Source: Nitrospirota bacterium
GTDB lineage: Bacteria > Nitrospirota > Nitrospiria > Nitrospirales > UBA8639
Direction: 5' to 3'
DNA length: 19,030 bases
NCBI GenBank assembly: GCA_029879555.1
Contig: JAOUQB010000010.1
Coordinates: 1-19,030, forward strand
Shown here: one piece after another, positions 1,564 through 19,030 of the stretch
How positions within the stretch are numbered: the first letter of the stretch is position 1
Layout of the letters: each line of letters opens with the position of its first letter
The notes under the pieces: model-generated
Seen by the model: the letters and a program-made list of their open reading frames with translations, nothing else
Databases searched by the model: none
What the model was told of the DNA's origin: nothing
Translations under genes and position numbers: made by a program

Positions 1564-2232
1564 TTAGTCTGAAATTTTATAGCCTATGTCACGCACGGTC
1601 TGGATGAGTTTTGGGGAGAAGCCTTTATCGATTTTATTGCGGAGATAACGGATATAGACATCGACGACATTGGTGCCCGGATCATGGTGTTGGCCCCACA
1701 CCTGTTCCAAAATCATGGTTCGGCTCAAGGGACGGTTCGGACGAGACATGAGGTATTCCAACAGCGCAAACTCTTTGGCAGTCAGGGCGATGGATTGTTG
1801 AGCACGCGTGACTTCCCGGGTGTCCTTGTTTAAACAGAGATCGCCCACCTGAAGGGTTGTGGGTGTTTCTTGGTAGATGCCACGTCTGAGAAGGGCCTGA
1901 ACTCTTGCGAGCAATTCTTCGAAGGCAAAAGGTTTGGTTAAATAATCATCGGCCCCCCTTTTGAGCCCTTCCACTTTATCTTCAAGCGTATCCCGTGCTG
2001 TGAGCATGAGAATGGGGGTGTGAATGCCTTCCTGTCTCAGTGTTTGGCAAATGTCCTTTCCAGTCAGTCCGGGTAACAAGAAATCGAGGATAAGGAGTCC
2101 ATAGTTTCCTCTCCCCAACTCCAATCCTTGCGGACCGGTGGCAGCCGTGTCGACTTGATAGCCCTCGGCTTCTAGGCCACGTTTAATAAATTGGGTAATG
2201 CGGTCGTCATCCTCGATGAGTAGTAATCTCAC
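1564..2232 (-). CDS. OmpR/PhoB-family response regulator
   Basis: A 222-residue two-domain DNA-binding response regulator, the usual length for this family. The receiver domain (about 1-118) shows the acidic cluster EDDD at 7-10, the phosphoacceptor Asp50 in LILDFLLPG, the switch Thr78 in MLTARD and Lys100 in YLTKPF. The C-terminal winged helix (about 125-222) has family signatures including LTAKEFALLEYL, VVDVYIRYLRNKID and RDIGYK. The start is a GTG at 2232-2230. It lies inside the 3' end of the upstream histidine kinase gene, overlapping it by 26 bases, so the two are almost certainly translationally coupled and form a cognate pair. The gene is the last of a run holding a porin, a small binding protein and the kinase, whose expression it probably controls along with other targets. 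The ligand or stress sensed cannot be read from the sequence. Confidence 0.95.
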   Translation of the reverse strand: MRLLLIEDDDRITQFIKRGLEAEGYQVDTAATGPQGLELGRGNYGLLILDFLLPGLTGKDICQTLRQEGIHTPILMLTARDTLEDKVEGLKRGADDYLTKPFAFEELLARVQALLRRGIYQETPTTLQVGDLCLNKDTREVTRAQQSIALTAKEFALLEYLMSRPNRPLSRTMILEQVWGQHHDPGTNVVDVYIRYLRNKIDKGFSPKLIQTVRDIGYKISD

Positions 2233-4069
2233 GTGCCATCTCGCTCGTAAAGGTTTGTTGGGGGAATTGAAGTGTCACGGTGGAACCTTCTCCCAGGCGG
2301 CTGGAAAAGTGAATGTGCCCTCCATGGGCTTCTGTAATCCATTTGGCTATGGCTAAGCCTAATCCAGCTCCCGGTTGGGTATGGTCTTTCACTCGGTGTC
2401 CCCGGTAAAAACGGTCAAAAATATGAGGGAGTTCCTGCTCGGCAATTCCTTGTCCGTGATCGATGATTTCGATAGTCGTATCGTCGGAATTCTGGCGTGC
2501 CCCCATTTGTATGTGGCTGTTGGCATCGGAATATTTGATGGCATTGTCTAAGAGAATGAGGAGAAGTTGCTTTAGCCGTTGAGGGTCTCCGAAGAGATTC
2601 ATCGAGTCTGGAGCATTCACGAAGGTAATGGAGATATTTTTTTTCCGAGCGAGCACCGTAGCTTCTTGCCGTACGTCTTGTAAGAGTTTCTCTAAAGATA
2701 GTTCGCTCTTAGTAATTTGGATCGTCCCTGTTTCTGAACGGGCAAGAAACAGGAGATCGCTGACCAATTGATTGACCTCTCCGGTCAATTGGACAATGCG
2801 CTCCAAGGAGGTTTTATATTCGAGAAGGGGCTTGTCTTTTCCTCGGAGGGTCACTTCGGCTTCACCGCGAATAACGGTCAATGGGGTGCGAAGTTCATGG
2901 CTGATGTCGGCAAAAAATTGTGATCGTAATTGGTCCAATTCTTTCAGCCGGGCATTGGCTTTTTCTAAGGCAGCTTGCGCCTTTTTTCGTTCAGTGATGT
3001 CTTGAGCTAAACAGGCAATTCCTTGAATGGTCTCATTGGCCTCTTTGATCGTGGCAGCTGAAAATAAAACGGGGATCAATTTTCCGTGTTTAGTCCGATA
3101 ACAGCTCTCAACATGGCCAAAACTGCCCTCTTTGAGTAATTGGCTGATCCGTTCTGGGGGCAAGAGATTCTGCGTGGATGGAAAGAGAATGTTAATGTGT
3201 TGGCCAATGAGTTCATCACATTGGAATCCTAGGAGCTGCTCAGTCGAACGGTTTATGGATTGAATGATGCCCTTCGTATCCAAGACCACTAAACAATCCA
3301 ACATGGATGTTAGAATGCTGTCTAAATAATCTTTCGAGACGGTGGTTTTGTAGAGCCGTTCCGTCATTTGATTGAACCCGGTGGTGAGTTGTCCTAATTC
3401 ATCATTGGAATGAACGGGGACTAAAATATCCAGTCGGCCAGATGCCACCTGTTTCGTGGCGTCCGTGAGTGGAGTAATCACTTGTAAGGATTGGCGAAGG
3501 AGGACGAATACTAGTCCTCCGCCAACAGCCATAATGAAGACACTGATTCCCAATGTTCGCCAAAGAACGAGATGAAGGCGGGCTTCCAGCGATTGACGAT
3601 CCAGGATGACGCGGATCCAGCCCTGCGTGTTTGGAGGGCCGACCTGATCTGAGGAAAACGGGAAGGAAACGGGATGGAAAAATTCAGTCACTCTCATGTG
3701 GTTGGGCAATAACGACTCCCGAGATGAGCGAGTCGGTGAGGTGCTCAACGCCAGCTCGGATGAGGCCAATTCAATGATGGAAGATTCTATCCACAGATTG
3801 GACCGTCCGGTATAGGCGAGGATTGCCAGGACGCCTTCTGCCTCGCCCAGGGATTGCAAGAGCGTCGTGAAGCCTTCGACATCCTGGGTCTGATAATAGT
3901 TCATCGATTCGGAGGCGATGGCTTTGGCTAATTCCCGGCCTCGAATATTGAATTCCTCAAACATGGCTTCTCGAGTCGCTTGATAGGTAAAAAACGTTAA
4001 CCCGCCATTGGCCCCGATCAGGATCAGCACCACAATCACCAAGAGTTTGTGCCACAAACGAACACACAT
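2207..4069 (-). CDS. Sensor histidine kinase with HAMP and PAS domains
   Basis: A 620-residue membrane histidine kinase. Order: transmembrane helix 1 (about 8-28), periplasmic sensor region (about 30-168), helix 2 (about 170-191), HAMP linker (about 192-245), PAS domain (about 248-360, ending in CLAQDITERKKA), a short coiled coil, HisKA with the phosphoacceptor His391 in ISHELRTPL, and HATPase_c with N box LLDNAIKYS (about 507-514), G1 box DHGQGI (537-542) and G2 box GAGLGLAI (567-574). All catalytic motifs are intact. The ATG at 4069 is only 5 bases after the stop of the binding-protein gene, with AGGAGGGTGAG upstream, so it is cotranscribed with it. The 3' end overlaps the response regulator by 26 bases. 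Placement after a porin and a small PstS-like protein suggests the periplasmic domain senses a solute handled by them or an envelope signal; that is inference. Confidence 0.95.
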   Translation of the reverse strand: MCVRLWHKLLVIVVLILIGANGGLTFFTYQATREAMFEEFNIRGRELAKAIASESMNYYQTQDVEGFTTLLQSLGEAEGVLAILAYTGRSNLWIESSIIELASSELALSTSPTRSSRESLLPNHMRVTEFFHPVSFPFSSDQVGPPNTQGWIRVILDRQSLEARLHLVLWRTLGISVFIMAVGGGLVFVLLRQSLQVITPLTDATKQVASGRLDILVPVHSNDELGQLTTGFNQMTERLYKTTVSKDYLDSILTSMLDCLVVLDTKGIIQSINRSTEQLLGFQCDELIGQHINILFPSTQNLLPPERISQLLKEGSFGHVESCYRTKHGKLIPVLFSAATIKEANETIQGIACLAQDITERKKAQAALEKANARLKELDQLRSQFFADISHELRTPLTVIRGEAEVTLRGKDKPLLEYKTSLERIVQLTGEVNQLVSDLLFLARSETGTIQITKSELSLEKLLQDVRQEATVLARKKNISITFVNAPDSMNLFGDPQRLKQLLLILLDNAIKYSDANSHIQMGARQNSDDTTIEIIDHGQGIAEQELPHIFDRFYRGHRVKDHTQPGAGLGLAIAKWITEAHGGHIHFSSRLGEGSTVTLQFPQQTFTSEMAREITTHRG

Positions 4070-4074
4070 GGAGA

Positions 4075-4521
4075 TTACTCACCCTCCTCTTTGAGGATGA
4101 AAATCACCTTGATCGTTTCGTTCACCGAAGACAACTTTACATATCCAATCGCCCCGTCGATAGCGGCCACAAACCGAATGACCGCTTCGTCGGATCGTTG
4201 AATGAGACTCTGGACAGCGACCGGGGTTCCGGGCCGGAGAAATTGTTGGTCGGAGCGGGCATTGAGAACCTTTTGGTAAAAATGCTCTCGGCTATCAGAG
4301 GAAATTTCCCGATTGACTAATTTGATTCGACCTCCGTGTGCCCAATGCAGTTCTTCGCCTCGATACATTGCCGCAATGCTGGTTTTTGTCAGGGACGTGA
4401 CGGGATTGTGCGTATTGACGATCACCGCTAATGGTTCAGCCAGCGCATAGGGAGATCCACCCCACGCACCGATAGCCAACATCCATCCAAAAATTGAAAA
4501 CACGAGAGTTCGTAAAGGCAT
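4075..4521 (-). CDS. Small PstS-like periplasmic substrate-binding protein
   Basis: A 148-residue protein with a signal peptide ending near ALA-EP (about residue 28), so it is probably periplasmic. The mature part resembles the short PBP-like proteins annotated as phosphate ABC transporter substrate-binding proteins: an early AVIVNTHNPV strand, the helix LTKTSIAAMYRGEELHW, then VNREISSDSREHFYQKVL, and a late GAIGYVKLSS. At about 120 mature residues it is less than half of a full PstS, and no permease or ATPase genes are near, so it is unlikely to feed an ABC importer. It starts 20 bases after the porin stop with no good ribosome site, suggesting translational coupling, and ends 5 bases before the histidine kinase. 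The likely role is to deliver a ligand to, or modulate, the kinase or the porin. Ligand identity (phosphate or another oxyanion) is not shown by the sequence. Confidence 0.8.
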   Translation of the reverse strand: MPLRTLVFSIFGWMLAIGAWGGSPYALAEPLAVIVNTHNPVTSLTKTSIAAMYRGEELHWAHGGRIKLVNREISSDSREHFYQKVLNARSDQQFLRPGTPVAVQSLIQRSDEAVIRFVAAIDGAIGYVKLSSVNETIKVIFILKEEGE

Positions 4522-4541
4522 GTGGATGTGTCGAAGAAGAG

Positions 4542-5825
4542 TTAGAACAGCCAGGCAATAGATGCGATAAAGCCATTCCAGCTTTGGCGCTCAATGCCTC
4601 CGTTATTAATTTGGTATTCGGTTTTAATGACGTAATTTTCAATGGGCCGGTAATTCAGTCCAACCGTAAAACGATCTTCGGTTAAACTACCGGTTCCCGC
4701 GTTGGTGGCAATGCGAGCATGGTCAAATCGTCCCACGAGCGTAAACGTCGGGTGGGTATAGGGCTCTCCCAAAAAGGTGTGATCGAACAGGCTTGGCCAA
4801 AAATGATAATTTACTTGTGCGTAATATCCATAGAGTCGAGAGGGAGTGTTTGACCCATTGATATCAAAGTGGGCGAATTCTCCTTTGAGTTCAAAATCTT
4901 CCCAGAATGGGATTCCCCGTGGTTTTAATTCCAAATCCACATCGATACCGGTAATGGTTTTTCCGTTCCCAGGGCTTGAGGCTCCTCGATAGCCACTTAC
5001 CCCAATTTCGTATTGATCAGCCAGCTTGACCGTGGCTCTCCCAACCACCGCCTTTTGCCCATTGTTGTCCCGAGTCAAAGGAGACTTGGCATCTTGAAGC
5101 CCGCCATTTGTGGAAGAAAATTGATCAGTGAGGCCATTGATCACCGCGACTTCATAGGTACTGATGACGTTCGGCGACCAAGGGATCAGGCCGAAGAGAC
5201 TAGCTCCCAAATCGCCCCAGGTGGTGGGCACGATTTGGCGTGCGACGAGTGGGCGGTCGGTCAGATCTCTTCTTGGATCAAAGTGATCTAAATTCCATTT
5301 GCCAAATGGAACCAACACCACCCCGCCACGTAAATTGATCCATTTAGCGAGGAGCAGATCAACGTACGCTTGTTCCGCCTCGGCTTCACCCTCCGGGATG
5401 CCGAGGTCAATTTCATTATAAAAACGAATGCGGTCATGAATCTGCCCGGCGATGAGCACTTCCAGTTTGCCTTCAAAAGAGGTTTTCGATCCGCCGAAGG
5501 CTTCGAACTCAATGGCCCCGTATCCCCCAAGAATCACTCGTTGGGATATTTCATCGAGAATGGAGTTTTGTTGCGATTCCAGGACTTCCACGCGATCCTT
5601 GAGTGTTTGGATTTCCTGTTCATAGACGTCAGGCTTGTCGACAGTCTGAGGCACAGTGGCATTGGATAGACGTTCTTGGGCTCCGAATCCCCCTCCTGGG
5701 ATCAGGATGATTCCCCACATGGTCACGGACACCAAACACGAGAGACGAAAGTTTCGAATGACCCACGATCTATGTGACCGTGGCTCATGGGGGTGACATC
5801 CGAATACAGAATTAGAACTTGCCAT
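4542..5825 (-). CDS. Outer-membrane porin, phosphate-porin (OprO/P)-like, paralogue of the gene at 14489
   Basis: A 427-residue predicted outer-membrane barrel. I chose the ATG at 5825 because AAGAGGT lies a proper distance upstream and it begins just inside the end of the preceding gene (14-base overlap); the frame is open further upstream but that part reads as shadow. The N-terminus is long for a signal peptide, with the hydrophobic stretch at about 29-48 and likely cleavage after GFGA. Residues about 66-95 form a short coiled coil, as in trimeric porins. The rest alternates as beta strands and ends in Phe (SIAWLF). The segment LVPFGKWNLDHFDPRRDLTD at about 171-190 matches a segment of the second porin in this window (LLPLGKFNLLHDAPLRDLTE). 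It lies directly before the small binding protein and the two-component genes. Substrate unknown; an anion or metal chelate is plausible. Confidence 0.85.
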   Translation of the reverse strand: MASSNSVFGCHPHEPRSHRSWVIRNFRLSCLVSVTMWGIILIPGGGFGAQERLSNATVPQTVDKPDVYEQEIQTLKDRVEVLESQQNSILDEISQRVILGGYGAIEFEAFGGSKTSFEGKLEVLIAGQIHDRIRFYNEIDLGIPEGEAEAEQAYVDLLLAKWINLRGGVVLVPFGKWNLDHFDPRRDLTDRPLVARQIVPTTWGDLGASLFGLIPWSPNVISTYEVAVINGLTDQFSSTNGGLQDAKSPLTRDNNGQKAVVGRATVKLADQYEIGVSGYRGASSPGNGKTITGIDVDLELKPRGIPFWEDFELKGEFAHFDINGSNTPSRLYGYYAQVNYHFWPSLFDHTFLGEPYTHPTFTLVGRFDHARIATNAGTGSLTEDRFTVGLNYRPIENYVIKTEYQINNGGIERQSWNGFIASIAWLF

Positions 5826-6429
5826 AGGAAGACCTCTTAGGAATTGGAGTGATAATCCAATGTGGGAAATCGTGTGTTGAGCGTGAGGAGGGCGTAAACA
5901 TTCGCTGGGTTGATTGAGGGGAAAATTCCCAGCGAATCGTCGGTGGTCGTGCGAGACTGGCCGAAATGTCAAAGGTTGCTCGTTGAAGTTCTTGAATAAT
6001 GAGGTGAAACTCATTCTGATGAATAAAGCAGAACCCCTTGGTATAGAGATGGCTGGCTTGGTCTGTTCTGACTCGAAAGTCAATCACTTCCTCCGGAAGA
6101 GCCTGTCCAAAGGCTTTAGGCAGTTCTCTTGCGAGAAGCGTTACTTGATAGTCGGTAAAGGTGGGGCGTCGTTTTCCCATGTGAGAGGAAAATAGCTCAC
6201 TGTGCTGATAGTGAATTTGGTGTAAGAGATCTCGAAGTTGAGCGGTCTCAACATCGGCCGGGTGGGCGAAATTGGTGAGGATAGGATAACCGCTTGGCCA
6301 TTCCCGGAGATCCACCCATTCGGTTTCAGTTTGGTAGATCGTCATGTGTGGAGGAGAGGTACAGGACACGCTGGTGGCACAAAGAGCCCATAGCATCAAA
6401 TAATATTTCAACTGAATGTTCATTCTCAT
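5812..6429 (-). CDS. Probable lipoprotein or secreted protein of unknown function
   Basis: A 205-residue protein starting at the ATG at 6429 (a second ATG two codons later, at 6423, is equally possible); GGTGGGGACC lies just upstream. The N-terminus MRMNIQLKYYLMLWALC is followed by ATSVSC, which could be a weak lipobox (Cys at about residue 23), so lipid anchoring is possible but not certain. The mature part contains no motif I recognise; it has an aromatic-rich start (QTETEWVDLREWPSGYP) and a central helical region with many His and Arg residues. The frame continues upstream of 6429, but that part looks non-coding. It overlaps the porin start by 14 bases, so it is translated together with the porin and may be an accessory of it. 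I do not recognise the family. Confidence 0.65.
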   Translation of the reverse strand: MRMNIQLKYYLMLWALCATSVSCTSPPHMTIYQTETEWVDLREWPSGYPILTNFAHPADVETAQLRDLLHQIHYQHSELFSSHMGKRRPTFTDYQVTLLARELPKAFGQALPEEVIDFRVRTDQASHLYTKGFCFIHQNEFHLIIQELQRATFDISASLARPPTIRWEFSPQSTQRMFTPSSRSTHDFPHWIITPIPKRSSYGKF

Positions 6430-7930: not shown

Positions 7931-8521
7931 ATGGGTGAAGCTTCAGACCATGACGATGAGTCGGCCCTCATTGTCAGGTCCCAACAGCAGGATCATCAGG
8001 CGTTTGGCTGTCTAATTGATCGTTATGGCGGAACGGTGCTGAATGTCATTGCCCGAATGATTGGCAACCAGACGGATGCGCAAGATGTGGCACAAGAGGC
8101 ATTTGTGTCGGCGTTCAAGTCCATTGCCAATTTCCGAGCTGACAGCCGGTTTTCCACCTGGCTTCATCGCATAGCGGTGAACAAAGCGAAAGATTATTTG
8201 AGAACGCAGGGACGGCGGCAAGAACGAGAAATTTTCAAGCCAACTGAAGACGATGGGAATGATCCCATCATGAATATTGCCGATGACCGAACCCCAGAAC
8301 ATGGGGCTTCCGACAAACAAACGGCCCACCATATCGAGCAGGCCATTCAACGGTTGTCACCCCTTTATCGGGAAGCGTTTGTGCTGAAGCATGTCGAGGG
8401 GATGGAGTATGAGGAGATGGCCCAGGTCCTCGGGGTCGGGAGGGATGTGTTGAAAATGCGAGTGTATAAGGCCAGAATCAAACTCGCACAAGAGCTTGAG
8501 TGGCTCAAGGAGGATCAATGA
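7931..8521 (+). CDS. ECF (RpoE-like) RNA polymerase sigma factor
   Basis: A 196-residue protein with the two domains of extracytoplasmic-function sigma factors. Region 2 (about 24-92) includes DAQDVAQEAFVSAFKSI, FSTWLHRIAVNKAKDYLR and the typical -10-recognition helix. Region 4 (about 135-190) includes AIQRLSPLYREAFVLKHVEGM and the helix-turn-helix YEEMAQVLGVGRDVLKMRVY. Between them is a short acidic linker. The ATG is preceded by AAAAGGAA at good spacing. The gene ends in ATGA, shared with the next gene, which occupies the normal anti-sigma position. This sigma factor therefore probably drives its own operon (sigma, CBM48 membrane protein, CBM48 lipoprotein, Arg/Gly-rich protein) in response to an envelope signal. 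Subgroup assignment would need a profile search. Confidence 0.95.
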   Translation: MGEASDHDDESALIVRSQQQDHQAFGCLIDRYGGTVLNVIARMIGNQTDAQDVAQEAFVSAFKSIANFRADSRFSTWLHRIAVNKAKDYLRTQGRRQEREIFKPTEDDGNDPIMNIADDRTPEHGASDKQTAHHIEQAIQRLSPLYREAFVLKHVEGMEYEEMAQVLGVGRDVLKMRVYKARIKLAQELEWLKEDQ

Positions 8522-9252
8522 CCTCTTCATTCAATCCAGACATTCCAGATGATCAGGACGACATGGATGAAAGGGATTGGCTCATCCAACGCTTTGTGGA
8601 TCATGATTTGTCACCACTAGAGCGGATAGATTTTCTCAAGGAGATGGATCGGGATCCCATGTTGCGCAAGCAAGTCCTTGCGACTGAGCAGATGCTTCTT
8701 CATTCAGCTCAATTGCCTCGAATGGCGGTCCCACCAGGGTTTAAAGCGGAGATATTGAAACAGCTGGCCCCTTCTCCGGTGAACAAACCATGGTGGAAGC
8801 CCTTCTGGTCTATTCTCTTTGCTCCACGGGTTTTGCAATGGAATCCGGCGATGGCCATGGCCGCCGCGTGTCTTCTTATCGGAATGCTGTGGATCGTCAA
8901 GCAGCCGATGATTCCTAGTGGTTCGGAAATGGGAGCAACAACTTCGGTGATGAAGGCCAGTCTGCCAGAACCAGATGATAAACCGGTGATGGTCAGATTG
9001 GTCATGTTGGAGCCGCAGGCACGATCGGTCGCGGTGGCCGGGGATTTTAATGGGTGGCAGCCACAAGAAACGCCTTTGCAGCGGACTGAAGACGGGGCTT
9101 GGACGGTGACGCTCCAAGTCAAACCGGGGCGCTATCATTATATGTTTGTGATCGATGGGCAAGAATGGATCACCGATCCCTTTGCCGGTGAATATAGTTC
9201 GGATGGGTTTGGAGCGAAAAATGCCGTCTTGGATGTCTCTCATGCTCTCTAA
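8518..9252 (+). CDS. Anti-sigma-like membrane protein with extracytoplasmic CBM48 domain
   Basis: A 244-residue protein starting at the ATG at 8518, four bases before the sigma stop, with AAGGAGG ahead of it. Residues 1-105 are cytoplasmic and contain WLIQRFVDHDLSPLERIDFLKE, resembling the start of anti-sigma factor domains but lacking the Cys/His zinc motif. One transmembrane helix covers about 110-128. The rest (about 157-240) is an AMPK/CBM48-type early-set domain: VMVRLVMLEP, VAVAGDFNGWQP, a Trp at 195, then GRYHYMFVIDGQEWITDP. Known family members bind alpha-glucans through the conserved Trp residues. The position, single membrane helix and coupling argue that it holds the sigma factor inactive and that the outer domain is the sensor. 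What it binds is unknown, and loss of the zinc motif makes the anti-sigma role an inference. Confidence 0.8.
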   Translation: MTSSFNPDIPDDQDDMDERDWLIQRFVDHDLSPLERIDFLKEMDRDPMLRKQVLATEQMLLHSAQLPRMAVPPGFKAEILKQLAPSPVNKPWWKPFWSILFAPRVLQWNPAMAMAAACLLIGMLWIVKQPMIPSGSEMGATTSVMKASLPEPDDKPVMVRLVMLEPQARSVAVAGDFNGWQPQETPLQRTEDGAWTVTLQVKPGRYHYMFVIDGQEWITDPFAGEYSSDGFGAKNAVLDVSHAL

Positions 9253-9302
9253 TTATTTTCGCACTTGCTGGATGGTCTTCCGTTGGCTAATCTTTACGGG
9301 AC

Positions 9303-9689
9303 ATGCTGTTCTCAAAAAGATCTCTGCCTTCAACGTCTTTTCTGGTTGTGATTGGGCTGGTCCATGGCTTTCTGAGTGCCTGTGCCTCCGCTCCAGCAGT
9401 GCCGGTCGTTCCTCAACAAATGGAGGATGGGGTCGAATTTTCCTTGGTACTGCCCAACGTGCAATCTGTTGCGGTGGTGGGAGATTTTAATGATTGGTCT
9501 CACACGGCAGATCTTCTGGGGCGGGAAGATGGAGATCGGTGGTCTGGGGTTGTCCCGTTAGCATCGGGCGAGCATGTGTTTATGTTTGTCGTGAATGGAG
9601 AACAATGGGTCGTTCCTCCCATGGCGGAGGATTATGTTGACGATGGGTTTGGTCAAAAAAATGGTGTGGTGGTGGTGCGGGAAGAGTAA
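9303..9689 (+). CDS. CBM48 (glycogen-binding-like) lipoprotein
   Basis: A 128-residue protein with a lipoprotein signal peptide (lipobox LSAC, Cys27) and, after a Pro/Val linker, one AMPK/CBM48-type domain (about 42-125): VEFSLVLPNVQSVAVVGDFNDW, a central Trp80, HVFMFVVNGEQWVVPP and the closing DDGFGQKNGVV. This is clearly a paralogue of the C-terminal domain of the gene just upstream (DDGFGQKNGVV versus SDGFGAKNAVL), so a local duplication is likely. The ATG at 9303 is the only ATG after an in-frame stop; the ribosome site (ACGGGAC) is poor. It sits 50 bases downstream of the anti-sigma-like gene in the same direction and is probably in the sigma operon. It might compete for, or present, the ligand sensed by the membrane protein. 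Confidence 0.85.
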   Translation: MLFSKRSLPSTSFLVVIGLVHGFLSACASAPAVPVVPQQMEDGVEFSLVLPNVQSVAVVGDFNDWSHTADLLGREDGDRWSGVVPLASGEHVFMFVVNGEQWVVPPMAEDYVDDGFGQKNGVVVVREE

Positions 9690-12008: not shown

Positions 12009-12176
12009 CTAGTTGTTGGGTTCCGACATCATAAAGACGGCCTTTTCTCCTAATATTTTTGGCATGGACATGGCGAACATCATGAGGAATCCGATAGCCA
12101 TCAGAAGATTTTCAGTCAATTTGGTGAAAGCAAATATGGATGGTCTAGAGGAAATAGGACAGGGAACGATCAGCAT
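12009..12176 (-). pseudogene. C-terminal remnant of a second copy of the four-helix membrane protein
   Basis: A 55-codon frame begins with an ATG directly after the stop of the small lipoprotein gene and ends at TAG (12011-12009). Its translation aligns with the last 45 or so residues of the protein at 12557-13069: ENLLMAIGFLMMFAMSMP against GDALMVIGFLIMFIVPMY, and EKAVFMMSEPNN against QKAAFMMPESDD. The DNA is alignable too (12015-12135 with 12568-12690). The first three helices and all candidate haem histidines are missing, so this is best read as the tail of a degraded duplicate whose front was lost or replaced by the lipoprotein gene. Translation of the fragment is possible, since its ATG follows a stop codon, but it has no good ribosome site. 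Confidence 0.7.
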
Positions 12177-12556: not shown

Positions 12557-13069
12557 TCAGTCATCTGACTCCGGCATCATGAACGCGGCTTTTTGCCACC
12601 ACATTTCATACATGGGCACGATGAACATAATGAGAAATCCAATGACCATCAACGCATCACCCGTCAACATGGTGAGAACAAACACGGGTGACACATAGGT
12701 AATGAGCCAGGGAGAGAGTAAATCGAGCGTGACCCCCAAAAACGAAATCCATGTGGTGAGCACCTTCAGGAAGGGGCTGATCATCGTTAAATAGAGGACA
12801 TGGACCAGAATCATAAAGACGACCGGCATGGTAAACAGATGGAAATGTGTGGTTTCGGATAAATGCCCAAACGACATCGGTTCCCCGAAGTTCGCGTCGG
12901 ATCCCCGATAATGGGCGGCCAGGCCTTTGGGTGTCAGTTGAGTCATATCGTGAGCCCACACGAAAGTGAACACGAACCCTGCGAGCATGAGCAGGAGAAA
13001 CCAGGTATAGACTAAGCGGATATGGCGGTCGGTATCGCGGAGACGAAAGCGGGCATTAAAATTTCGCAT
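12557..13069 (-). CDS. Four-helix membrane protein, candidate haem-binding partner of the FMN protein
   Basis: A 170-residue integral membrane protein with helices at about 19-39, 78-98, 104-124 and 136-156. The Arg-rich start (RFRLRDTDRHIRL) suggests a cytoplasmic N-terminus. His16 lies just before helix 1, His40 just after it, His77 at the outer end of helix 2 and His90 thirteen residues further in the same helix. This places His40/His77 near the outer face and His16/His90 near the inner face, a layout that could hold two b-type haems. I do not recognise a named family. It begins 17 bases after the FMN-binding gene and is surely cotranscribed. With an ApbE-modified flavoprotein as neighbour, a role in passing electrons from the quinone pool across the membrane is the simplest proposal; haem binding is inference. 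Confidence 0.8.
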   Translation of the reverse strand: MRNFNARFRLRDTDRHIRLVYTWFLLLMLAGFVFTFVWAHDMTQLTPKGLAAHYRGSDANFGEPMSFGHLSETTHFHLFTMPVVFMILVHVLYLTMISPFLKVLTTWISFLGVTLDLLSPWLITYVSPVFVLTMLTGDALMVIGFLIMFIVPMYEMWWQKAAFMMPESDD

Positions 13070-13086
13070 TCCATTGTTGCAGGAGG

Positions 13087-13776
13087 TTAGAACCCCAGCA
13101 GGGACTCCAAAAAGGCTTTGTCCGTCCGACTGGCCGTATTGATGGGAGCACTTTTGCTCTGGGATTTTAAGTAGAGTTCATCGGCCAGCACGAGGGCTCG
13201 TTTCACGCCCGCGCTCATGGATCGCACCGACATGGTGGCGCCGGAAATATTGATCACGTCCCGATTGATCCGAATGGGATCAGACACCGTTTTCCCTTGG
13301 AATTGGTAATTAAAACGTTTTTTGCGGACTTCGCTGCCCCGTGATTCTCGATAGACCAGAATTTCTACATTGGTGACTTCCCCATCGGGGTCAACGCCAA
13401 CCATATAGGTCATTGGCTTATGCTTCCCGATCGTATTTTGAACAAAGGCCCATCCATCGACTGTTCCTTTCGTTTCTCCAATGAAGCAATCAAAGGTTGT
13501 CTCGGGGAAATGCCATCCAATGCGTTCTTCGATCAATCGTTTTTGGTCTTCGGAAATGGTGATGATTTCGGAACGGATCGAATCTGACGAGGGAAACATC
13601 AATTTTGCGGCGTCTTCCTGAGTCAGGTAGACATCCTCCTGACCCATTTCCTGGGGCGTCAGATATCGGTTCAAGTCCTTATCCCAGATTTGCTGATCCT
13701 GGGCCTGGACTCCAGCGATTAGGATAAGAGAAAGGAGCGTGTTGAGAAGCAGGATCGTCAGGATTCGATGAAACAT
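13087..13776 (-). CDS. FMN-binding-domain protein, predicted covalently flavinylated by ApbE
   Basis: A 229-residue protein with a signal peptide (cleavage after GVQA, about residue 25) and an FMN_bind domain (about 95-205). The domain has the flavinylation motif ISGATMSVRS, with Thr181 as the expected attachment site of FMN through a phosphoester made by ApbE, as known for NqrC, RnfG and related proteins. No membrane anchor is seen besides the signal peptide, so it is a soluble or loosely held periplasmic electron carrier. The ATG at 13776 has GAGG upstream and overlaps the preceding lipoprotein gene by 19 bases. The ApbE gene is in the same window at 16464. No Rnf or Nqr subunits are nearby, so this is one of the stand-alone extracytoplasmic flavin systems. 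The upstream Fur boxes suggest induction by iron limitation. Confidence 0.92.
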   Translation of the reverse strand: MFHRILTILLLNTLLSLILIAGVQAQDQQIWDKDLNRYLTPQEMGQEDVYLTQEDAAKLMFPSSDSIRSEIITISEDQKRLIEERIGWHFPETTFDCFIGETKGTVDGWAFVQNTIGKHKPMTYMVGVDPDGEVTNVEILVYRESRGSEVRKKRFNYQFQGKTVSDPIRINRDVINISGATMSVRSMSAGVKRALVLADELYLKSQSKSAPINTASRTDKAFLESLLGF

Positions 13777-14249
13777 CCTTCAGCCTCAAGTTTCTTGGTT
13801 AAGCTGTTTAAAATATGATCCACCTTTTGTTGTGACGGCTGGACCGGATACCAATCATAGATCCGAGACCCACCCCGAAATCCCCAATGTTGCCGCCGTT
13901 CAGCAATTTGCAGTCGCACGGTATTGGATTCGAGGGGTTTCAAGTTTAAGGTCAGTTGGGATCGTTCTTTATCGCCCATGCCTTCTCGCCCGAGCAGGCC
14001 ATACCCTGGGCCCTGTACATATTCCACGCGCCATCCTGTTTCGATCACGCCGTTGGCTTTATCTTTCACCGTCACGGGATAGGCTTTCAGCGATTCAAGG
14101 GAGGAATTCCACACGGAGTCCATGGGACAGGCCATGTATCGGTCGACCATTAAGTCTTGGCCTGCAAGGGACCCACAGCCCAAGAACATGGCTGTGCATA
14201 TGAGGAGAAAAGTTCCGCGAAGCAGAGAGGTCAAGAATAAAGCCAACAT
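13758..14249 (-). CDS. Lipoprotein with BamC-like fold features, first gene of the flavin operon
   Basis: A 163-residue protein. I chose the ATG at 14249; the frame is open to a TTG at 14285, but that would put the start within a Fur box. The N-terminus is hydrophobic and ends in FLGC (Cys25), a slightly atypical lipobox. The mature part has MACPMDSVWNSSLESLKAYP, then ANGVIETGWRVEY and a later RLQIAERRQHW, a pattern like the helix-grip domains of BamC-type lipoproteins (a helix after a short strand, then GxIxTxW). The relationship is weak and by eye only. Two Fur-like boxes lie 37-80 bases upstream, and the gene overlaps the FMN-binding gene by 19 bases. It may anchor or organise the flavoprotein at a membrane. 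Confidence 0.7.
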   Translation of the reverse strand: MLALFLTSLLRGTFLLICTAMFLGCGSLAGQDLMVDRYMACPMDSVWNSSLESLKAYPVTVKDKANGVIETGWRVEYVQGPGYGLLGREGMGDKERSQLTLNLKPLESNTVRLQIAERRQHWGFRGGSRIYDWYPVQPSQQKVDHILNSLTKKLEAEGCFIES

Positions 14250-14285
14250 GAAGAACTCTAATGAATTGAAAAATAAAGAAACCAA

Positions 14286-14300
14286 TGAGAACGAATATCA
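14286..14300 (-). promoter_or_regulatory. Fur-box-like operator, proximal
   Basis: TGAGAACGAATATCA matches the 7-1-7 Fur consensus (TGATAAT-N-ATTATCA) at 11 of 14 positions. It begins 37 bases upstream of the chosen ATG of the lipoprotein-FMN operon. Confidence 0.5.
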
Positions 14301-14313
14301 ATATATCTGAATT

Positions 14314-14328
14314 TGATTCTCATTATTA
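14314..14328 (-). promoter_or_regulatory. Fur-box-like operator, distal
   Basis: TGATTCTCATTATTA matches the 7-1-7 Fur consensus at 11 of 14 positions, 28 bases from the proximal site. The paired sites in an A/T-rich stretch ahead of the operon make iron-responsive repression likely. Confidence 0.6.
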
Positions 14329-14437
14329 AAAATGAAAAAGCGATTCTATCACCGAGATTTGAAGTCGGTCAACTTGGCTCCTAATGCCGAAATTGCCTAA
14401 TGTTTTCAAAGTGTTCATCTTTCATTCCATTGCTTTA

Positions 14438-14474
14438 AACAGGGGAGAACAACTTGCCGCTTTCTCCCCCTGTT
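14438..14474 (-). terminator. Rho-independent terminator after the second porin
   Basis: AACAGGGGAGAA (14438-14449) pairs with TTCTCCCCCTGTT (14462-14474) apart from one bulged C, with a 12-base loop. It lies just after the stop of the porin at 14489. The minus-strand transcript is followed by TTTAAAG; the plus-strand side has CTTTTG. It separates the porin transcript from the Fur-box operon downstream. Confidence 0.75.
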
Positions 14475-14488
14475 CTTTTGCCCAATTT

Positions 14489-15919
14489 TTAGAAATAGGT
14501 GGCCCAAGAGGCCACAAATGCGGTGTCATGAATTCTCTGGCTACCACTACGTCCCTTGGGCGTATATTGGAAATCCGTTTTGAACACCGTATCTTCCGTT
14601 GGTCGGAAGTTCAGCCCAACGGTTGCACGTTGCCATTCCCCCAGTTTTGCCGCTTCGGAACTACCATGTAAGTCCTGGCCCAGGTTCATCTGTTCCCACC
14701 GTGCGACAGCGGTAAAGGTGGAGATTTCCTGCTTAAAGAAGGTTGGCGCGGCATTGGTTAACCATTGTGGAAGGAAGTGGTAATTGAGTTGGAGATAGTA
14801 CCCGTACATGCGCTTGGGTTGCCCGTTCGGGGTTCCGTCTACGCCACGATCGTTTTTCTCAATACGGGCCCAAGCACTTTCCCCGATGAACTCAAAGGGG
14901 CCACGCTGGAATGTCCAATCTACGGCAAAAATCCCCAGTGACCGGTTGCTCATCGGATCGTAGGATCCGTAAAAACCCGATCCGCCAATTTCTACTCCCA
15001 AAAGGGGGCTTACCGCCACACGTCCAGCCACGGCCTTCGCATCATTATTGTCAAATTCCGTGTTAGTGGTACGGGCCGACCGGATTCCATTCGATGTGGT
15101 GATATTAGAATCATTGTTCGGGTTACCCTTTCCTCCAAAGGCGTTGGTAAAGCCGCTGATGAAGTAAACCTCGTAGTCCACCTTGGAAAGTGTGGTGGGA
15201 TAAAACGTTCCATAGGCGCCAATGCCTGGTTGGTGGAGGGTGGAAGGGAGGATGCGTTGGTCCACAAGAGGACGTTCCGTGAGATCTCGAAGGGGAGCGT
15301 CATGCAGGAGGTTGAATTTTCCCAGAGGCAGAAGAAGGATTCCTGCGCGAAGATTGATGGGTTCCTGAATGAGATAGTCGATGGTGGCAAATTCTATGGC
15401 GAGTTCGTTCCCATGCTCGAATTCAATTTCTGCGGCGACTTTCACCCGATCACTGACGTCTGCATAAATAAACGGGACCAAGTGGTGCTGGTCGAAGTAG
15501 CTATTCCCTTGGTTTCGACGATTCCAATATTCGATGTCGATGTATCCACCGACGATGGCTTTTGGGCTGGAGACGAAGGGCCGGGCATAGACGAGTCCAC
15601 CGGATCCTTGCATGGTCGATCCATATTTCTTTTGCGGAGAAATTTCCTGCAAACTCTTGCCTCCACGGATGTTGAGTTGAGGCGCGGTTCCCGCTTCTGA
15701 CGTTACGCCTGGAATCGCGCCCTGTCTCAGGAGGTCCTGAAATCGTTGTTCGACTTTTTGATCGACTATCCGTTCGATTTCTTCATTTGAGATGACGTTG
15801 ACGGGAGATGAAGAATCGGAAAGACGCTCATCCCTTGCCTGGGCCCCAGTGGTCAAACCAAGCGCACTTGCCATAACGCAGAAAACTACAACAGCTCTAC
15901 TCATTAACCGACCCATCAT
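14489..15919 (-). CDS. Outer-membrane porin in the iron/flavin locus
   Basis: A 476-residue protein. The ATG at 15919 has GGGAG upstream; the frame is open to a TTG at 15934. The signal peptide (MMGRLMSRAV then a hydrophobic core) is cleaved near AQA-RD. Residues about 44-65 form a short coiled coil, then comes a Gln/Gly/Ser linker and a barrel from about 120 ending in Phe (ASWATYF). The segment RAGILLLPLGKFNLLHDAPL (191-210), followed by RDLTERPLVDQRILPST, matches the porin at 4542-5825, and the last strands also align (VGLNFRPTEDTVFKTDFQY against VGLNYRPIENYVIKTEYQI). It follows a Com-like zinc-ribbon gene downstream of Fur boxes and ends at a strong terminator. Iron-limited expression suggests it admits an iron compound or another metal complex; that is inference. 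Confidence 0.88.
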   Translation of the reverse strand: MMGRLMSRAVVVFCVMASALGLTTGAQARDERLSDSSSPVNVISNEEIERIVDQKVEQRFQDLLRQGAIPGVTSEAGTAPQLNIRGGKSLQEISPQKKYGSTMQGSGGLVYARPFVSSPKAIVGGYIDIEYWNRRNQGNSYFDQHHLVPFIYADVSDRVKVAAEIEFEHGNELAIEFATIDYLIQEPINLRAGILLLPLGKFNLLHDAPLRDLTERPLVDQRILPSTLHQPGIGAYGTFYPTTLSKVDYEVYFISGFTNAFGGKGNPNNDSNITTSNGIRSARTTNTEFDNNDAKAVAGRVAVSPLLGVEIGGSGFYGSYDPMSNRSLGIFAVDWTFQRGPFEFIGESAWARIEKNDRGVDGTPNGQPKRMYGYYLQLNYHFLPQWLTNAAPTFFKQEISTFTAVARWEQMNLGQDLHGSSEAAKLGEWQRATVGLNFRPTEDTVFKTDFQYTPKGRSGSQRIHDTAFVASWATYF

Positions 15920-16021
15920 TGTAGATACTCCCAAAAAATTGGGGACTCGAATGGTCCTCTGAGGTGAATGAAATAATGGAGCTCAGAGGCCCTCAGGTGT
16001 TATCGCACGTCAAACAAACGG

Positions 16022-16246
16022 CTAGGATTGGACCCCTGGGGAAGGTGTGGTGGCGCAGAGCGTGACGGTCACGTCGGAGTGGAACAGGGAAGAAAAAGGT
16101 ATAGAAACAAGACGTTTGCAACGTTTGCACTTCAACTCTAAACTCCCTAATCCAAACTTCGCGACCAGCTGACCACATTCACACCGAGCCTCAGACAGGC
16201 CAGTCGTTGAGCCTGTGAGAGCCGTGTGTTGTTGACTTGCGTTCAT
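16022..16246 (-). CDS. Com-like zinc-ribbon protein
   Basis: A 74-residue protein with a central zinc ribbon: RCECGQLVAK (Cys22, Cys24) and LELKCKRCKRLVSIP (Cys40, Cys43). The pattern resembles the Com family, named from the phage Mu translational activator of mom, which binds RNA and opens a start site. Homologues also occur in bacterial chromosomes away from phages. Here there are no phage genes, and the gene lies about 100 bases before the porin and just after two Fur boxes. The first pair is CxC rather than the usual CxxC. The ATG at 16246 has no clear ribosome site. It may regulate translation of the downstream porin or of iron genes, but no evidence beyond the zinc ribbon supports a function. 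Confidence 0.65.
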   Translation of the reverse strand: MNASQQHTALTGSTTGLSEARCECGQLVAKFGLGSLELKCKRCKRLVSIPFSSLFHSDVTVTLCATTPSPGVQS

Positions 16247-16275
16247 GAAAAATACGATCTATGGTACTTAGTAAT

Positions 16276-16290
16276 TGAGAATGATTATGA
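16276..16290. promoter_or_regulatory. Fur-box-like operator 1 between Com-like gene and apbE
   Basis: TGAGAATGATTATGA matches the 7-1-7 Fur consensus at 12 of 14 positions. It lies 30 bases upstream of the Com-like ATG, so it most likely controls the minus-strand Com/porin transcript. Confidence 0.65.
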
Positions 16291-16304
16291 ATTCCATGCT
16301 AATT

Positions 16305-16324
16305 GATATTGATAACCATTATTA
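16305..16324. promoter_or_regulatory. Fur-box-like operator 2 between Com-like gene and apbE
   Basis: GATATTGATAACCATTATT matches the classical 19-base Fur box at 16 of 19 positions; the 7-1-7 core TGATAACCATTATTA is at 16310-16324 (12 of 14). Being between divergent genes it could control both directions. Confidence 0.7.
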
Positions 16325-16391
16325 ATAAAGAAATGCCACTGAGTTTGTCAATCCCCAAAGTGCTATTTCTTCTAAAATTGAATAAATCAGG

Positions 16392-16406
16392 TGATAATCA
16401 TGAGCT
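16392..16406 (+). promoter_or_regulatory. Fur half-site and possible -10 near apbE
   Basis: TGATAATCATGAGCT has a perfect left half of the Fur consensus and a poor right half. The GATAAT within it could be a -10 element for apbE, whose start codon is about 60 bases downstream. Weak on its own. Confidence 0.35.
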
Positions 16407-16463
16407 GTCTGAAATGTTCTGTGCTGTGCAACGGCTTTACGACAACTAAGAAGGAGAAGGACT

Positions 16464-17540
16464 TTGAAATCACTGGCGACTAGAAGATTTGGTTATGGCC
16501 GGTTTTGGCTTATCGGGATGCTTGCCTTCGGCATTGCGGCCACAAGCGTAGGAGAAGCTCTTGCGAAAGATTCTCTCATCAAACGAAGCCAATATTTAAT
16601 GGGGACTTTGGTTTTTGTGACGGGAGTAGCCCAGGATGAAGAAACGGCCAAGACTGCGGTAACCCAGGGCTTGGCTGAAATACGTCGTATTGAACAATTG
16701 ATGAGTACGTGGATTCCCACCAGTGAGCTGTCAAAGGTGAATGCGGCTGCGGGGAAACATTCCGTGCCAGTCAGCCTGGAGAATATGGAAGTGCTAAAGG
16801 CCTCGCTGCGAATGGCACAATTAACTGAGGGCGGATTTAATATAGCCGTGGGCCCTGCGGTAACCGCGTGGAATGTCAGTCAGGAAGGAAGGATTCCTTC
16901 GCTGGCAGAATTGGACGCGGTTCGTCCCTTCATCGCTCTCGACAATGTTGTTCTTGATGAAGCGGCCAGCACAGTGTTTCTCAACCGTGCGGGAATGCAA
17001 ATCGATGTTGGTGGTATTGGCAAAGGCTATGCTGCCGATTTGGTTGTAGAGGTCATGAAAAAGGCCGGAGCGACAGCGGGTGTGGTGGCGCTTTCAGGGG
17101 ATATCAAAACATTTGGTCGTATGCCGGATCAGGAACGATTTGTCTTTGGCATACAGCACCCCAGAAAAGAACAAGGAGAAGTTTTGGGTCGGATTGAACT
17201 AGAAAATGAAGCGGTGTCGACAGCAGGTGACTATCAACGCTTTATCATGAAAGATGGTATTCGCTACCACCATATTCTTGATCCGACCACACTTCAGCCG
17301 GCCAGAGGATGTCAAAGTGTGACGATTATTGCCAAAGACGGCGTCATGGCAGATGGCTTAGACACGGGTATCTTCGTCATGGGCTCAGAGAAAGGCATGG
17401 CGCTTATCGAATCGTTACCCGATGTGGAAGGTGTCATTGTTGATCAACATGGCAAAATACGTGTGTCCTCAGGCCTCCGATCCCGCCTCATGCTCGCCTC
17501 ACAATCCTCTGAAAACAAGAATGGTGAGCATAACAATTGA
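16464..17540 (+). CDS. apbE: FAD:protein FMN transferase (ApbE)
   Basis: A 358-residue ApbE-family protein. It moves FMN from FAD onto a Thr of FMN-binding-domain proteins outside the cytoplasm, with Mg2+. A signal peptide ends near EALA (residue 34); there is no lipobox. Family motifs: YLMGTLV (44-50), GGFNIAVGPAVTAW (123-136), DVGGIGKGYAADL (181-193), ALSGDIKTFG (209-218), STAGDYQRF (252-260), HHILDPTTLQPA (269-280) and the metal-binding ADGLDT (296-301). The GGFN and LSGD segments vary from the more usual GAFD and GGD forms, but the overall set looks functional. The start is TTG at 16464, chosen because AAGGAGAAGG lies just ahead and the next ATG (16518) would cut off the signal peptide. 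It is divergent from the Com/porin genes with Fur boxes between. Its likely substrate is the protein at 13087-13776. Confidence 0.95.
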   Translation: MKSLATRRFGYGRFWLIGMLAFGIAATSVGEALAKDSLIKRSQYLMGTLVFVTGVAQDEETAKTAVTQGLAEIRRIEQLMSTWIPTSELSKVNAAAGKHSVPVSLENMEVLKASLRMAQLTEGGFNIAVGPAVTAWNVSQEGRIPSLAELDAVRPFIALDNVVLDEAASTVFLNRAGMQIDVGGIGKGYAADLVVEVMKKAGATAGVVALSGDIKTFGRMPDQERFVFGIQHPRKEQGEVLGRIELENEAVSTAGDYQRFIMKDGIRYHHILDPTTLQPARGCQSVTIIAKDGVMADGLDTGIFVMGSEKGMALIESLPDVEGVIVDQHGKIRVSSGLRSRLMLASQSSENKNGEHNN

Positions 17541-17654: not shown

Positions 17655-17682
17655 CATTTTGGGTTTCAAGGGAGATATGAGG

Positions 17683-17910
17683 ATGAAAACAACCAAAGCT
17701 TCAGAATTCAAAGCGCGGTGTCTCCAGTGAATAGATGAGGTATTCCAAACAGGTGAAGCCCTGCTCATTACCAAGAATGGGAAGCCGGTAATCCAACTGG
17801 TCCCATATCGTGAGAAACCAGCAACGGTATTTGGAGCGATGAAAGGAACTGTGACGATTCAGGGGGACATTGTCTCGCCACTCAATGAAGAGTGGGAGGC
17901 CTTAGAGTGA
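17683..17910 (+). pseudogene. Phd/YefM-type antitoxin with in-frame stop
   Basis: From the ATG at 17683 (GGGAG eight bases upstream) the frame reads MKTTKASEFKARCLQ, then TGA at 17728-17730, then IDEVFQTGEALLITKNGKPV and on to a natural stop at 17908-17910, 75 codons in all. This is the usual length and layout of Phd/YefM antitoxins: N-terminal DNA-binding domain with the FKARCL...IDEV helix and the ITKNGKPVIQLVP strand, then a C-terminal toxin-binding tail ending in EEWEAL. The frame is intact on both sides of the TGA, so a single base change is enough to explain it. The N-terminal fragment would be only 15 residues. The stop overlaps the GTG of the toxin gene (GTGA), the classical TA arrangement. 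Confidence 0.85.
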
Positions 17911-18308
17911 TTCTCCTTGATACGCATGCCTTAGTTTAGCTGTCAGAAGGCCTGCCCTCCCTCGGAAAGCAAGCGAGGAAAATTGCGGATCAAGCCTTGG
18001 CTGATGACGCGTTAGCGGTCTCTGCTATTTCGTTTTTGGAGATTGTCTTGCTTCACCAGAAGGAAAGAATTATTTTGACCCAGGGGGTCTCTGCCTGGAG
18101 AAATCAATTATTGGAATTTGGTTTGCGGGAGCTACCCTTGGATGGAGAAATTTGCATCGCCTCGACAACCCTCGCGAATTTCCATTCAGACCAGGCTGAC
18201 CGATTCATTACCGCAAGTTCGGTGTTTTATGGAGCATCATTACTTACTGCTGATACGCGTATTCTCAAATGGACAGAGAAGGTCCACCGTATTGACGCGA
18301 GTCGATAA
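17907..18308 (+). pseudogene. VapC-type PIN-domain toxin with in-frame stop
   Basis: From the GTG at 17907 the frame reads MILLDTHALV, then TAG at 17937-17939, then LSEGLPSLGKQARK and on to a stop at 18308, 133 codons in all. The family signature is LLDTHALVWL, so the stop replaces a Trp codon (TGG to TAG, one base). The remaining PIN-domain landmarks are present: Asp5 in LLDTHAL, the ISFLEIVLL segment with its acidic residue (about 47-55), DQADRFITASS (about 98-108) with the third acidic site, and LLTADTRIL (about 114-122). PIN toxins cleave RNA. With the first catalytic Asp cut off from the rest, the protein should be inactive unless the stop is read through or translation restarts at a downstream codon. 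The pair is probably decaying. Confidence 0.88.
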
Positions 18309-18496
18309 TACGCTTAGTTAGATCTACCCGTTTCTTACCCTAGAATTTCAGGGTCAGGCTTACCTTACTATTTTCATAGAGTCGGCCAATGACTTTTAGC
18401 CCATGGCAGAAAACCCAGGCTGCATATATCGTGAGTATGAGTTCAGTAATAAGTGACTCCCACAAACAAATGCCTATGCAGATTTCTATTCAGCTA

Positions 18497-19030
18497 TCAT
18501 CCAAGGAGGCGAGACAAGAACTGCAAGGGATGCGCAATCCCACGCCCCTCAAAACGCTGTACCTGCGATCGACACGAGGCGCCTGTTGCCACGATGGGTC
18601 GGTTGGAGTTGGCTAGTTTGAATTTCCAGGATTGCTCATAAATGCCCTTCGATTCCTCGTAGTGCGCGGTCTCGTGCCCGAACGCACCCGCCATCCCGCA
18701 ACAGCCCGCCTTCACAATCTCTAAGTTCAGACCAAACGCCTGAAAGACCGCTTGCCACTGTCGCCCTGATGCCGGAATCGAAGATTTCTCGCTGCAGTGC
18801 CCCATGAATCCGATGGTGGGTGAGGTAAGCTGAGTTAGTGTTGCGGCGCGAGATGGCAGCGCGTGGGCTAGCCATTCTTGCGGCAACCAAACGTCGACGT
18901 CTTGTCGGTCGAGATAGGTGCGATACTCTTCCCGGTAGGTCAGGGTGATCGCTGGATCGATCCCAATGATTGGACGCCCCATTGATGCAAGCTTCTCAAG
19001 CTGCTGAGTGGCGTGACGGGCGGTGTGTTG
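18497..19030 (-). CDS. YdiJ-like FAD/Fe-S dehydrogenase, C-terminal part (5' end beyond window)
   Basis: The minus-strand frame is open from the window edge through to the TGA at 18499-18497, so 177 codons of the C-terminus are seen; an internal ATG at 18982 is not the real start. The visible part is the cysteine-rich domain found at the end of YdiJ-type proteins (E. coli YdiJ, about 1,000 residues): TIGFMGHCSEK, then AGCCGMAGAFGHE, YEQSWKFKLA, VATGASCRSQVQRF and HPLQFLSRLL. This domain normally binds an Fe-S centre and passes electrons from the upstream FAD domain. YdiJ has been assigned as a D-2-hydroxyglutarate dehydrogenase, but the substrate here cannot be judged without the N-terminal domain. 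The gene converges with the broken toxin; the 188 bases between hold no other gene. Confidence 0.9.
   Translation of the reverse strand, partial: QHTARHATQQLEKLASMGRPIIGIDPAITLTYREEYRTYLDRQDVDVWLPQEWLAHALPSRAATLTQLTSPTIGFMGHCSEKSSIPASGRQWQAVFQAFGLNLEIVKAGCCGMAGAFGHETAHYEESKGIYEQSWKFKLANSNRPIVATGASCRSQVQRFEGRGIAHPLQFLSRLLG

Follow-up and report, generated by a model that had tools for sequence, protein, structure and literature searches.

Gene content and layout of the locus

We analysed a 19,030-nucleotide stretch of DNA from a Nitrospirota bacterium (GenBank assembly GCA_029879555.1, contig JAOUQB010000010.1; hereafter the window), which carries a six-gene locus for an ApbE flavin transferase, an FMN_bind protein named for its flavin mononucleotide (FMN) domain, a four-helix membrane protein that we call TM4, a porin, a lipoprotein and a small zinc-ribbon-like protein. 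The window is one of the 605 contigs of a 3.2-Mb genome that is 92% complete and 5% contaminated. All six open reading frames (ORFs) were confirmed where an earlier reading of the same DNA (the original prediction) had placed them. The genes for the zinc ribbon, porin, lipoprotein, FMN_bind protein and TM4 lie on the reverse strand, while apbE runs divergently on the forward strand, with Fur-like boxes between them. No Rfam matches were found in the window at gathering thresholds.

The presence of apbE and of an FMN_bind protein with the ApbE target motif, both named in the original prediction, was borne out by profile searches. The apbE gene (positions 16464-17540, forward strand) matched PF02424 with 263.6 bits (cut-off 25.6), and its product has an N-terminal hydrophobic signal (residues 16-34) and FAD:protein FMN transferases as its relatives in the PDB. 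The FMN_bind gene (13087-13776, reverse strand) matched PF04205 with 44.6 bits (cut-off 22); its product likewise begins with a hydrophobic signal (residues 5-23), carries the motif SGAT with Thr181, and has RnfG chains as PDB relatives. Although it shares its domain and SGAT motif with NqrC and RnfG, no other Nqr or Rnf subunit was present among the scanned window proteins or the checked neighbours. One ApbE was found in the source assembly, together with one FMN_bind domain.

The porin gene (14489-15934, reverse strand) encodes a predicted 16-strand outer-membrane protein (AlphaFold pLDDT 76.8) whose best PDB fold match in Foldseek was OprP (2o4v_A, E 9.9e-13), but whose identity to OprP/OprO porins is 12-13%. 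We considered whether it might be a miniature TonB receptor, given a weak Plug match (E 0.011). This candidate was rejected: the matching region is variable or absent among relatives and is unstructured in the model save for helices 6-27 and 50-70. The model contains no plug domain. The lipoprotein (14285 down to 13758, reverse strand) narrowly matched DUF3576 (25.2 bits, cut-off 25). Cys37, its likely lipobox residue, was present in 72 of 72 aligned sequences, as was Cys171, and Cys53 in 72 of 73, the remaining one having an X. In the small protein encoded at 16022-16246 on the reverse strand, C22, C24, C40 and C43 were kept in all 35 aligned sequences. The Com-like character proposed originally is weak, the match to the phage Mu Com family, PF10122, reaching 14.3 bits against a cut-off of 22.9.

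TM4, a four-helix protein with invariant histidines

TM4 (12557-13069, reverse strand) is a 170-residue protein modelled by AlphaFold (pLDDT 90.0, pTM 0.82) as a four-helix inner-membrane protein, with helices at residues 15-43, 67-93, 99-125 and 128-157 and a short helix at 47-55. Neither Pfam (E≤1) nor NCBIfam yielded a family for it, and its model retrieved nothing from Foldseek at E≤0.001; the database relatives listed for it carry the precomputed label PF27139.1. No plasmid homologues were found. The paired histidines noted previously proved to be invariant, H75 and H77 being present in 68 of 68 aligned relatives, as was Y54, and Asp116 was mostly conserved. H90 was kept in all 61 short members, 27 of which are database proteins known from sequence without their gene neighbours, and in none of the seven others (five with a CxxCH motif, two without). 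Just downstream of TM4, at 12018-12173 on the reverse strand, lies a decayed partial copy of its C terminus, 42% identical over residues 117-168.

By the positive-inside rule, the charge distribution of TM4 suggests that its N terminus is inside, which would place Y54, H75, H77, D116 and W121 in the periplasmic half of the membrane. H77 and H90 lie on one helix, 13 residues apart, a spacing of histidines known for stacked haems. In the modelled structure the monomer has no second helix of the H77/H90 type, so that haem binding would require a dimer; if TM4 dimerises, the two positions could hold two stacked haems.

Kinship of TM4 with DUF4405 cytochromes was tried and rejected. No match to PF14358 was obtained at E≤1, TM4 has four helices against six, and hhalign probabilities did not exceed 3.5, compared with up to 5.7 for reversed controls; DUF4405 groups compared with one another reached only 40.3. 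For the cluster at this locus, no Pfam family of NapH-, MsrQ-, PepSY- or DsbD-like partners matched TM4 at that same threshold. A family scan was also run on the 68 TM4 relatives, with 25 families listed.

Conservation and co-occurrence of the gene set

Relatives of TM4 were confirmed at 100 places in a collection of species genomes, and the best 80 loci were used for comparison (loci and genomes are given L and G numbers where they need to be told apart). The named relatives come almost entirely from Nitrospirota assemblies. An FMN_bind gene lay directly upstream of TM4 in 78 of the 80 loci, among them each of the 76 whose upstream sequence exceeds 400 bases, and 78 of 79 FMN_bind sequences had the [ST]GA[ST] motif, the exception being an 82-residue fragment. 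Of the 51 loci with room for these genes, all had a divergent apbE and 50 had the lipoprotein; the porin was found in 60 of the 62 with room for it when scored by script, or 61 when L078 is counted, and L046 was also scored as missing it. The zinc ribbon was less constant (31 of the 51 loci having 5 kb upstream of TM4).

A sample of 116 Nitrospirales genomes, each at least 90% complete, was then scored for presence and absence. TM4 was present in 99 of these, FMN_bind in 103 and ApbE in 104. All 99 genomes with TM4 also had FMN_bind, four had FMN_bind without TM4, and 13, among them the one-contig genome G189, had neither (Fisher p 4e-14, shared ancestry ignored). The two genes adjoin on the same strand in 98 of the 99 genomes, the remaining TM4 being at a contig edge, and ApbE was present in 96 of the 99 (all but G297, G288 and G108). 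Beyond this order, 295 Nitrospirota genomes were scanned with the TM4 profile and 100 of them had relatives; at least three named Deltaproteobacteria were among the 120 matches listed. The co-occurrence of the four-helix protein with FMN_bind, ApbE and this porin is therefore strong, and the lack of co-occurrence that the original prediction had set out as its refutation was not what we observed. The gene set is an indivisible unit.

In the four genomes with FMN_bind and without TM4, the FMN_bind protein is of a 277-residue type with a stronger profile score. In the one of these that was opened, G105 (L208), it is the NqrC of an NQR operon that continues with an ApbE gene of its own; a similar NqrC gene lies in an NQR operon with its own ApbE in G137 (L209). 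NqrC-type and TM4-type FMN_bind proteins occur together in several Nitrospirales genomes, in some of which such NQR operons are separate from the TM4 locus.

Fusion of ApbE with FMN_bind in related loci

In six loci from other families of the class (L114-L118 and L120), a single ORF beside TM4 encodes ApbE followed by FMN_bind, and this fused ORF is preceded by a porin gene in the five that have sequence there. The order porin, FMN_bind, TM4, with no fused ApbE, was found in L121, L122 and L126. Since the porin, FMN_bind and TM4 are kept in both arrangements, these three form the core of the system, and the fusion in one ORF in six loci ties ApbE to the TM4-type FMN_bind protein.

None of the six complete fused ORFs has an N-terminal hydrophobic signal. 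A string resembling the twin-arginine consensus (RRRFL, RRRFM, RRRVL or RRSFL) lies between ApbE and FMN_bind in all seven linkers, counting that of the contig-edge locus L119. A hydrophobic stretch exceeding the threshold follows the motif in four of the six complete ORFs, L115 and L117 being those without it (L119 was excluded), and some of the fused ORFs have RRxφ-type strings at other sites too. On a plain reading of these features, the ApbE domain would act in the cytosol and the FMN-loaded domain would afterwards be exported by the twin-arginine translocation (Tat) pathway. Cytosolic ApbEs do exist, and ApbE has been described as fused to eukaryotic fumarate reductases (PMC12052999); that review does not use the word 'Tat' in its main text, and titles and opening parts of abstracts on ApbE, twin-arginine export and flavinylation reported no export of such a fusion.

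Predicted Fur control

The original prediction placed Fur-like boxes at both promoter regions, and matches to the Fur 7-1-7 consensus agreed with it. The best box of the divergent promoter (16275-16290, forward strand) matched at 12 of 14 positions (p 0.004 for the region, 500 shuffles), and a box at 14286-14301, upstream of the lipoprotein, FMN_bind and TM4 genes, matched at 11 of 14 (p 0.032, shuffles). Across 53 divergent promoter regions, shuffles reached the best consensus match no more than 1% of the time in 21 and no more than 5% of the time in 36. The box between porin and lipoprotein was less widespread (p≤0.05 in 8 of 39 gaps, mostly in close relatives of the window). In loci with the order porin, FMN_bind, TM4, a box before the porin matched at 14 of 14 positions (L126) or 12 of 14 (L121 and L122), scored without a shuffle control.

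The divergent promoter also contains a Fur-like 24-bp element, TATTAATAATCGTTCTCAATTTCA, at 16304-16327 on the forward strand (mismatch-free pattern match at 16309-16324), which is shared between loci whose flanking sequences differ. Its 15-base core matched at 11 or more positions in 49 of 54 loci and at all 15 in 25; L036, L037, L038, L049 and L062 fell below 11, and the 11 of 15 in L033 looks like chance. This core was derived from the same loci, and independent support comes from the general consensus test and from matches across whole genomes. In each of two Nitrospira genomes the core pattern occurred with at most one mismatch at four places, and a backward control at none. The mismatch-free matches were confined to the TM4 locus and a gene for a BFD [2Fe-2S] domain (35.1 and 34.3 bits, cut-off 26), and a single-mismatch match in the second genome lay 5' of a TonB gene. 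Both bfd and tonB are classical Fur targets. The prediction of Fur control is strengthened by the conservation of the element and by these sites at bfd-like and tonB genes elsewhere, and the locus is probably Fur-controlled; the source assembly has two Fur-family genes.

Four genomes of the sample (G307, G300, G121 and G216) had ApbE and neither TM4 nor FMN_bind. Because the contigs of G121 and G307 stop a few hundred bases past the promoter element (core matches 15/15 and 13/15), the locus appears to be cut by the contig end in these two.

Iron-related neighbours and haem-bearing relatives

Clusters of genes near TM4 in 91 loci included TonB (29 loci), ExbD (26), ExbB (25), bacterioferritin (29), the ATPase (34) and permease (17) of ATP-binding cassette (ABC) transporters, and the Fur family (11). 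One representative of each cluster was checked, and that of bacterioferritin scored above its equivalog cut-off. A Fur-family gene, by Pfam, lay near TM4 in seven of eight distant contexts of the short TM4 type (L114, L116, L117, L118, L120, L121 and L122; not L126). Genes for Fur, a cupredoxin and the permease FTR1 lie beside the porin in L114; a solute-binding protein with a permease is encoded in L120, and a ferritin in L122. A role in iron metabolism gains weight from these neighbours.

TM4 relatives of 236-253 residues carry an inserted CxxCH motif in the periplasmic loop that leads into the HxH helix. Such c-type relatives are present in at least 5 of the 116 Nitrospirales genomes, a lower bound with the profile used. 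In the three of the five loci that were opened (L128-L130), the gene for the CxxCH-bearing relative precedes those for a c-type cytochrome (by Pfam) and for a protein with one CxxCH that by eye resembles an outer-membrane beta-barrel, so that each position seems to have a haem version. The L128 copy of the barrel-like protein matched no Pfam family, and a profile comparison with the porin gave nothing significant (Prob 6.8). The cytochrome and barrel pair was not seen in the nearby genes of the c-type loci L123, L124 and L131; upstream in L123 are a NiFe-hydrogenase-family protein and an Oxidored_q6-family protein.

Other features of the window

Past apbE, at about 17670-18310 on the forward strand, is what by eye resembles a broken pair of an antitoxin and a PIN-domain-type toxin with in-frame stops. 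At 18497-18982 on the reverse strand lies the C-terminal piece of a YdiJ-like oxidoreductase, which matches positions 858-1017 of 1018. On the other side of the locus, the forward strand at 7931-9689 carries three genes that are found together again in L007 and L016: one for a sigma-factor-like protein (by eye), one for an anti-sigma-like protein with a terminal domain of the glycogen-branching-enzyme type (below cut-offs), and one for another small protein that by eye looks similar to this domain. The reverse strand at 1564-6083 holds in series a response regulator and a histidine kinase, both assigned by eye, along with a PBP_like_2 protein and another porin-like one (below cut-off), and the porin, PBP and kinase are together again in L003.

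Discussion

Taken together, these features support the original interpretation in part and point to an electron chain used under iron starvation, leading from TM4 via FMN to ferric iron for assimilation, a reading that we consider somewhat more probable than all others combined. At low iron, Fur would release both promoters, and the secreted ApbE would flavinylate the periplasmic FMN_bind protein at Thr181. TM4, perhaps by means of bound haem or quinone, would draw electrons from the membrane, probably from quinol, and pass them to the FMN on the periplasmic side, where the residues H75, H77, Y54 and W121, shared among relatives, are predicted to lie. The reduced flavin would then convert ferric iron or a ferric chelate admitted via the porin, and the released iron would be imported by the carrier that each species has, whether FTR1, an ABC importer or others.

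Several observations weigh against this proposal. In the source genome, the Fur pattern had 13 strand matches at 10 places, three of them in the TM4 locus, compared with 3 matches of a control pattern, and no iron genes were recognised at the other seven places. The BFD-domain gene reached only 29.5 bits with the model for bacterioferritin-associated ferredoxin (cut-off 75). In L114, L116, L117, L118 and L120, the sequence upstream of the porin matched the Fur consensus at only 7-10 of 14 positions, and that upstream of the fur gene at 11-13 in L114, L117 and L118 and only 8 and 10 in L116 and L120 (all without shuffle control). The neighbouring ABC transporters scored 259 bits with the ferric model (cut-off 496), which allows no substrate to be assigned, FTR1 occurred in only one of the eight distant contexts (L114), and no iron importer was recognised among the scanned genes of the window.

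The missing importer is what one would expect if TM4 were itself an inner-membrane metal permease or channel component, with the flavoprotein merely keeping iron reduced. The HxH common to all relatives and the largely conserved Asp116 would suit such a role in so small a membrane protein, but the c-haem relatives, with their cytochrome or NiFe-hydrogenase-family neighbours, point to redox chemistry. The pattern of H90, kept throughout the short members and lost in the seven others, also speaks against a permease, which we regard as improbable. The same relatives and their neighbours keep alive a different explanation, in which a flavin-based envelope chain stands in for a cytochrome-based one under iron starvation, much as flavodoxin replaces ferredoxin, and the acceptor need not be iron. 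Iron-sparing flavinylation has been proposed in the Discussion of PMC8238504, and the CxxCH relatives of TM4, together with the cytochrome and the CxxCH barrel-like protein of L128-L130, would supply the haem counterpart. However, the uptake and storage genes around the locus suit acquisition; the c-type relative is too rare in Nitrospirales to be the usual partner, three of its loci have no such pair nearby, and the haem-tagged protein has a significant match neither in Pfam (L128 copy) nor to the porin profile. We therefore judge iron sparing, the main rival, unlikely, if less so than the permease.

There was a structural hint that TM4 is related to haem-copper oxidases. On this view it would descend with their C-terminal helices from a common source, as a divergent protein standing alone, and bind haem through its HxH as they do through the HxH motif of helix X, but profile comparisons did not back this kinship and we consider it very improbable. 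In one such test, 11 of the 27 oxidase rows were dropped because they lacked the helix-X HxH pattern, wrong-frame ORFs (L185, L186) among them; the companion test still included all 11. As a separate observation, 20 Nitrospirota stretches (L188-L207) contain 22 stand-alone ORFs of 132-196 residues that match the C-terminal helices of haem-copper oxidases.

Within the proposed route to ferric iron, a more specific model is that TM4 represents an additional class of membrane electron carrier linked to flavinylation. It would be a four-helix dimer with two stacked haems, held by H77 and H90 of each partner, that is induced by iron starvation and feeds a flavoprotein working together with the outer-membrane porin; in its relatives, a cytosolic ApbE domain would load FMN before Tat export of the folded FMN domain via the internal twin-arginine segment. 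We put this model forward tentatively, as a serious possibility that falls short of being probable, and our estimate of it was lowered because the hydrophobic stretch was found in only four of six linkers.

Five kinds of membrane apparatus have been described for flavinylation, namely NapH-, MsrQ-, PepSY-, DsbD- and NQR/RNF-like (Meheust et al. 2021, PMC8238504), and PepSY-like clusters were there linked to iron and found to be Fur-repressed in two species. Like these systems as that paper describes them, the TM4 locus groups an apbE gene with genes for a flavinylation substrate and a membrane partner; unlike them, it has a partner that matches none of the five families, and a porin belongs to the set. 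The words 'porin' and 'Nitrospir' are absent from the main text of PMC8238504. The P19/FTR1 clusters with FMN_bind reported in the same source also place FMN_bind beside iron uptake, as does L114 with its FTR1, cupredoxin and Fur, but TM4 and the porin are extras of the TM4 locus; P19 did not turn up among the families in our scanned proteins, although no search was aimed at it. The DUF4405 proteins, including FezC, resemble TM4 as described in PMC10979944 in being membrane proteins with conserved histidines and a link to apbE or iron, and FezC was modelled to form its haem sites by dimerising; they differ in having six helices and four central histidines. The original prediction held that the combination of genes may be undescribed. 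As far as our searches show, the kind of system was already known, and what is new within the literature searched is its membrane partner, the inclusion of a porin, and a fusion that carries an export-type motif between its domains.

Nitrospirales include major nitrite oxidisers. Titles and opening parts of abstracts yielded no literature on iron acquisition by Nitrospira, for which this locus is a concrete, conserved candidate that also gives the TM4 family a testable role. If our proposal is true, known flavinylation systems would gain one more membrane partner, and if the fusion is exported as proposed, a covalent flavoprotein would be loaded in the cytosol before its export. With flavin and haem versions of one scaffold, the question of iron sparing could be tested within a single order.

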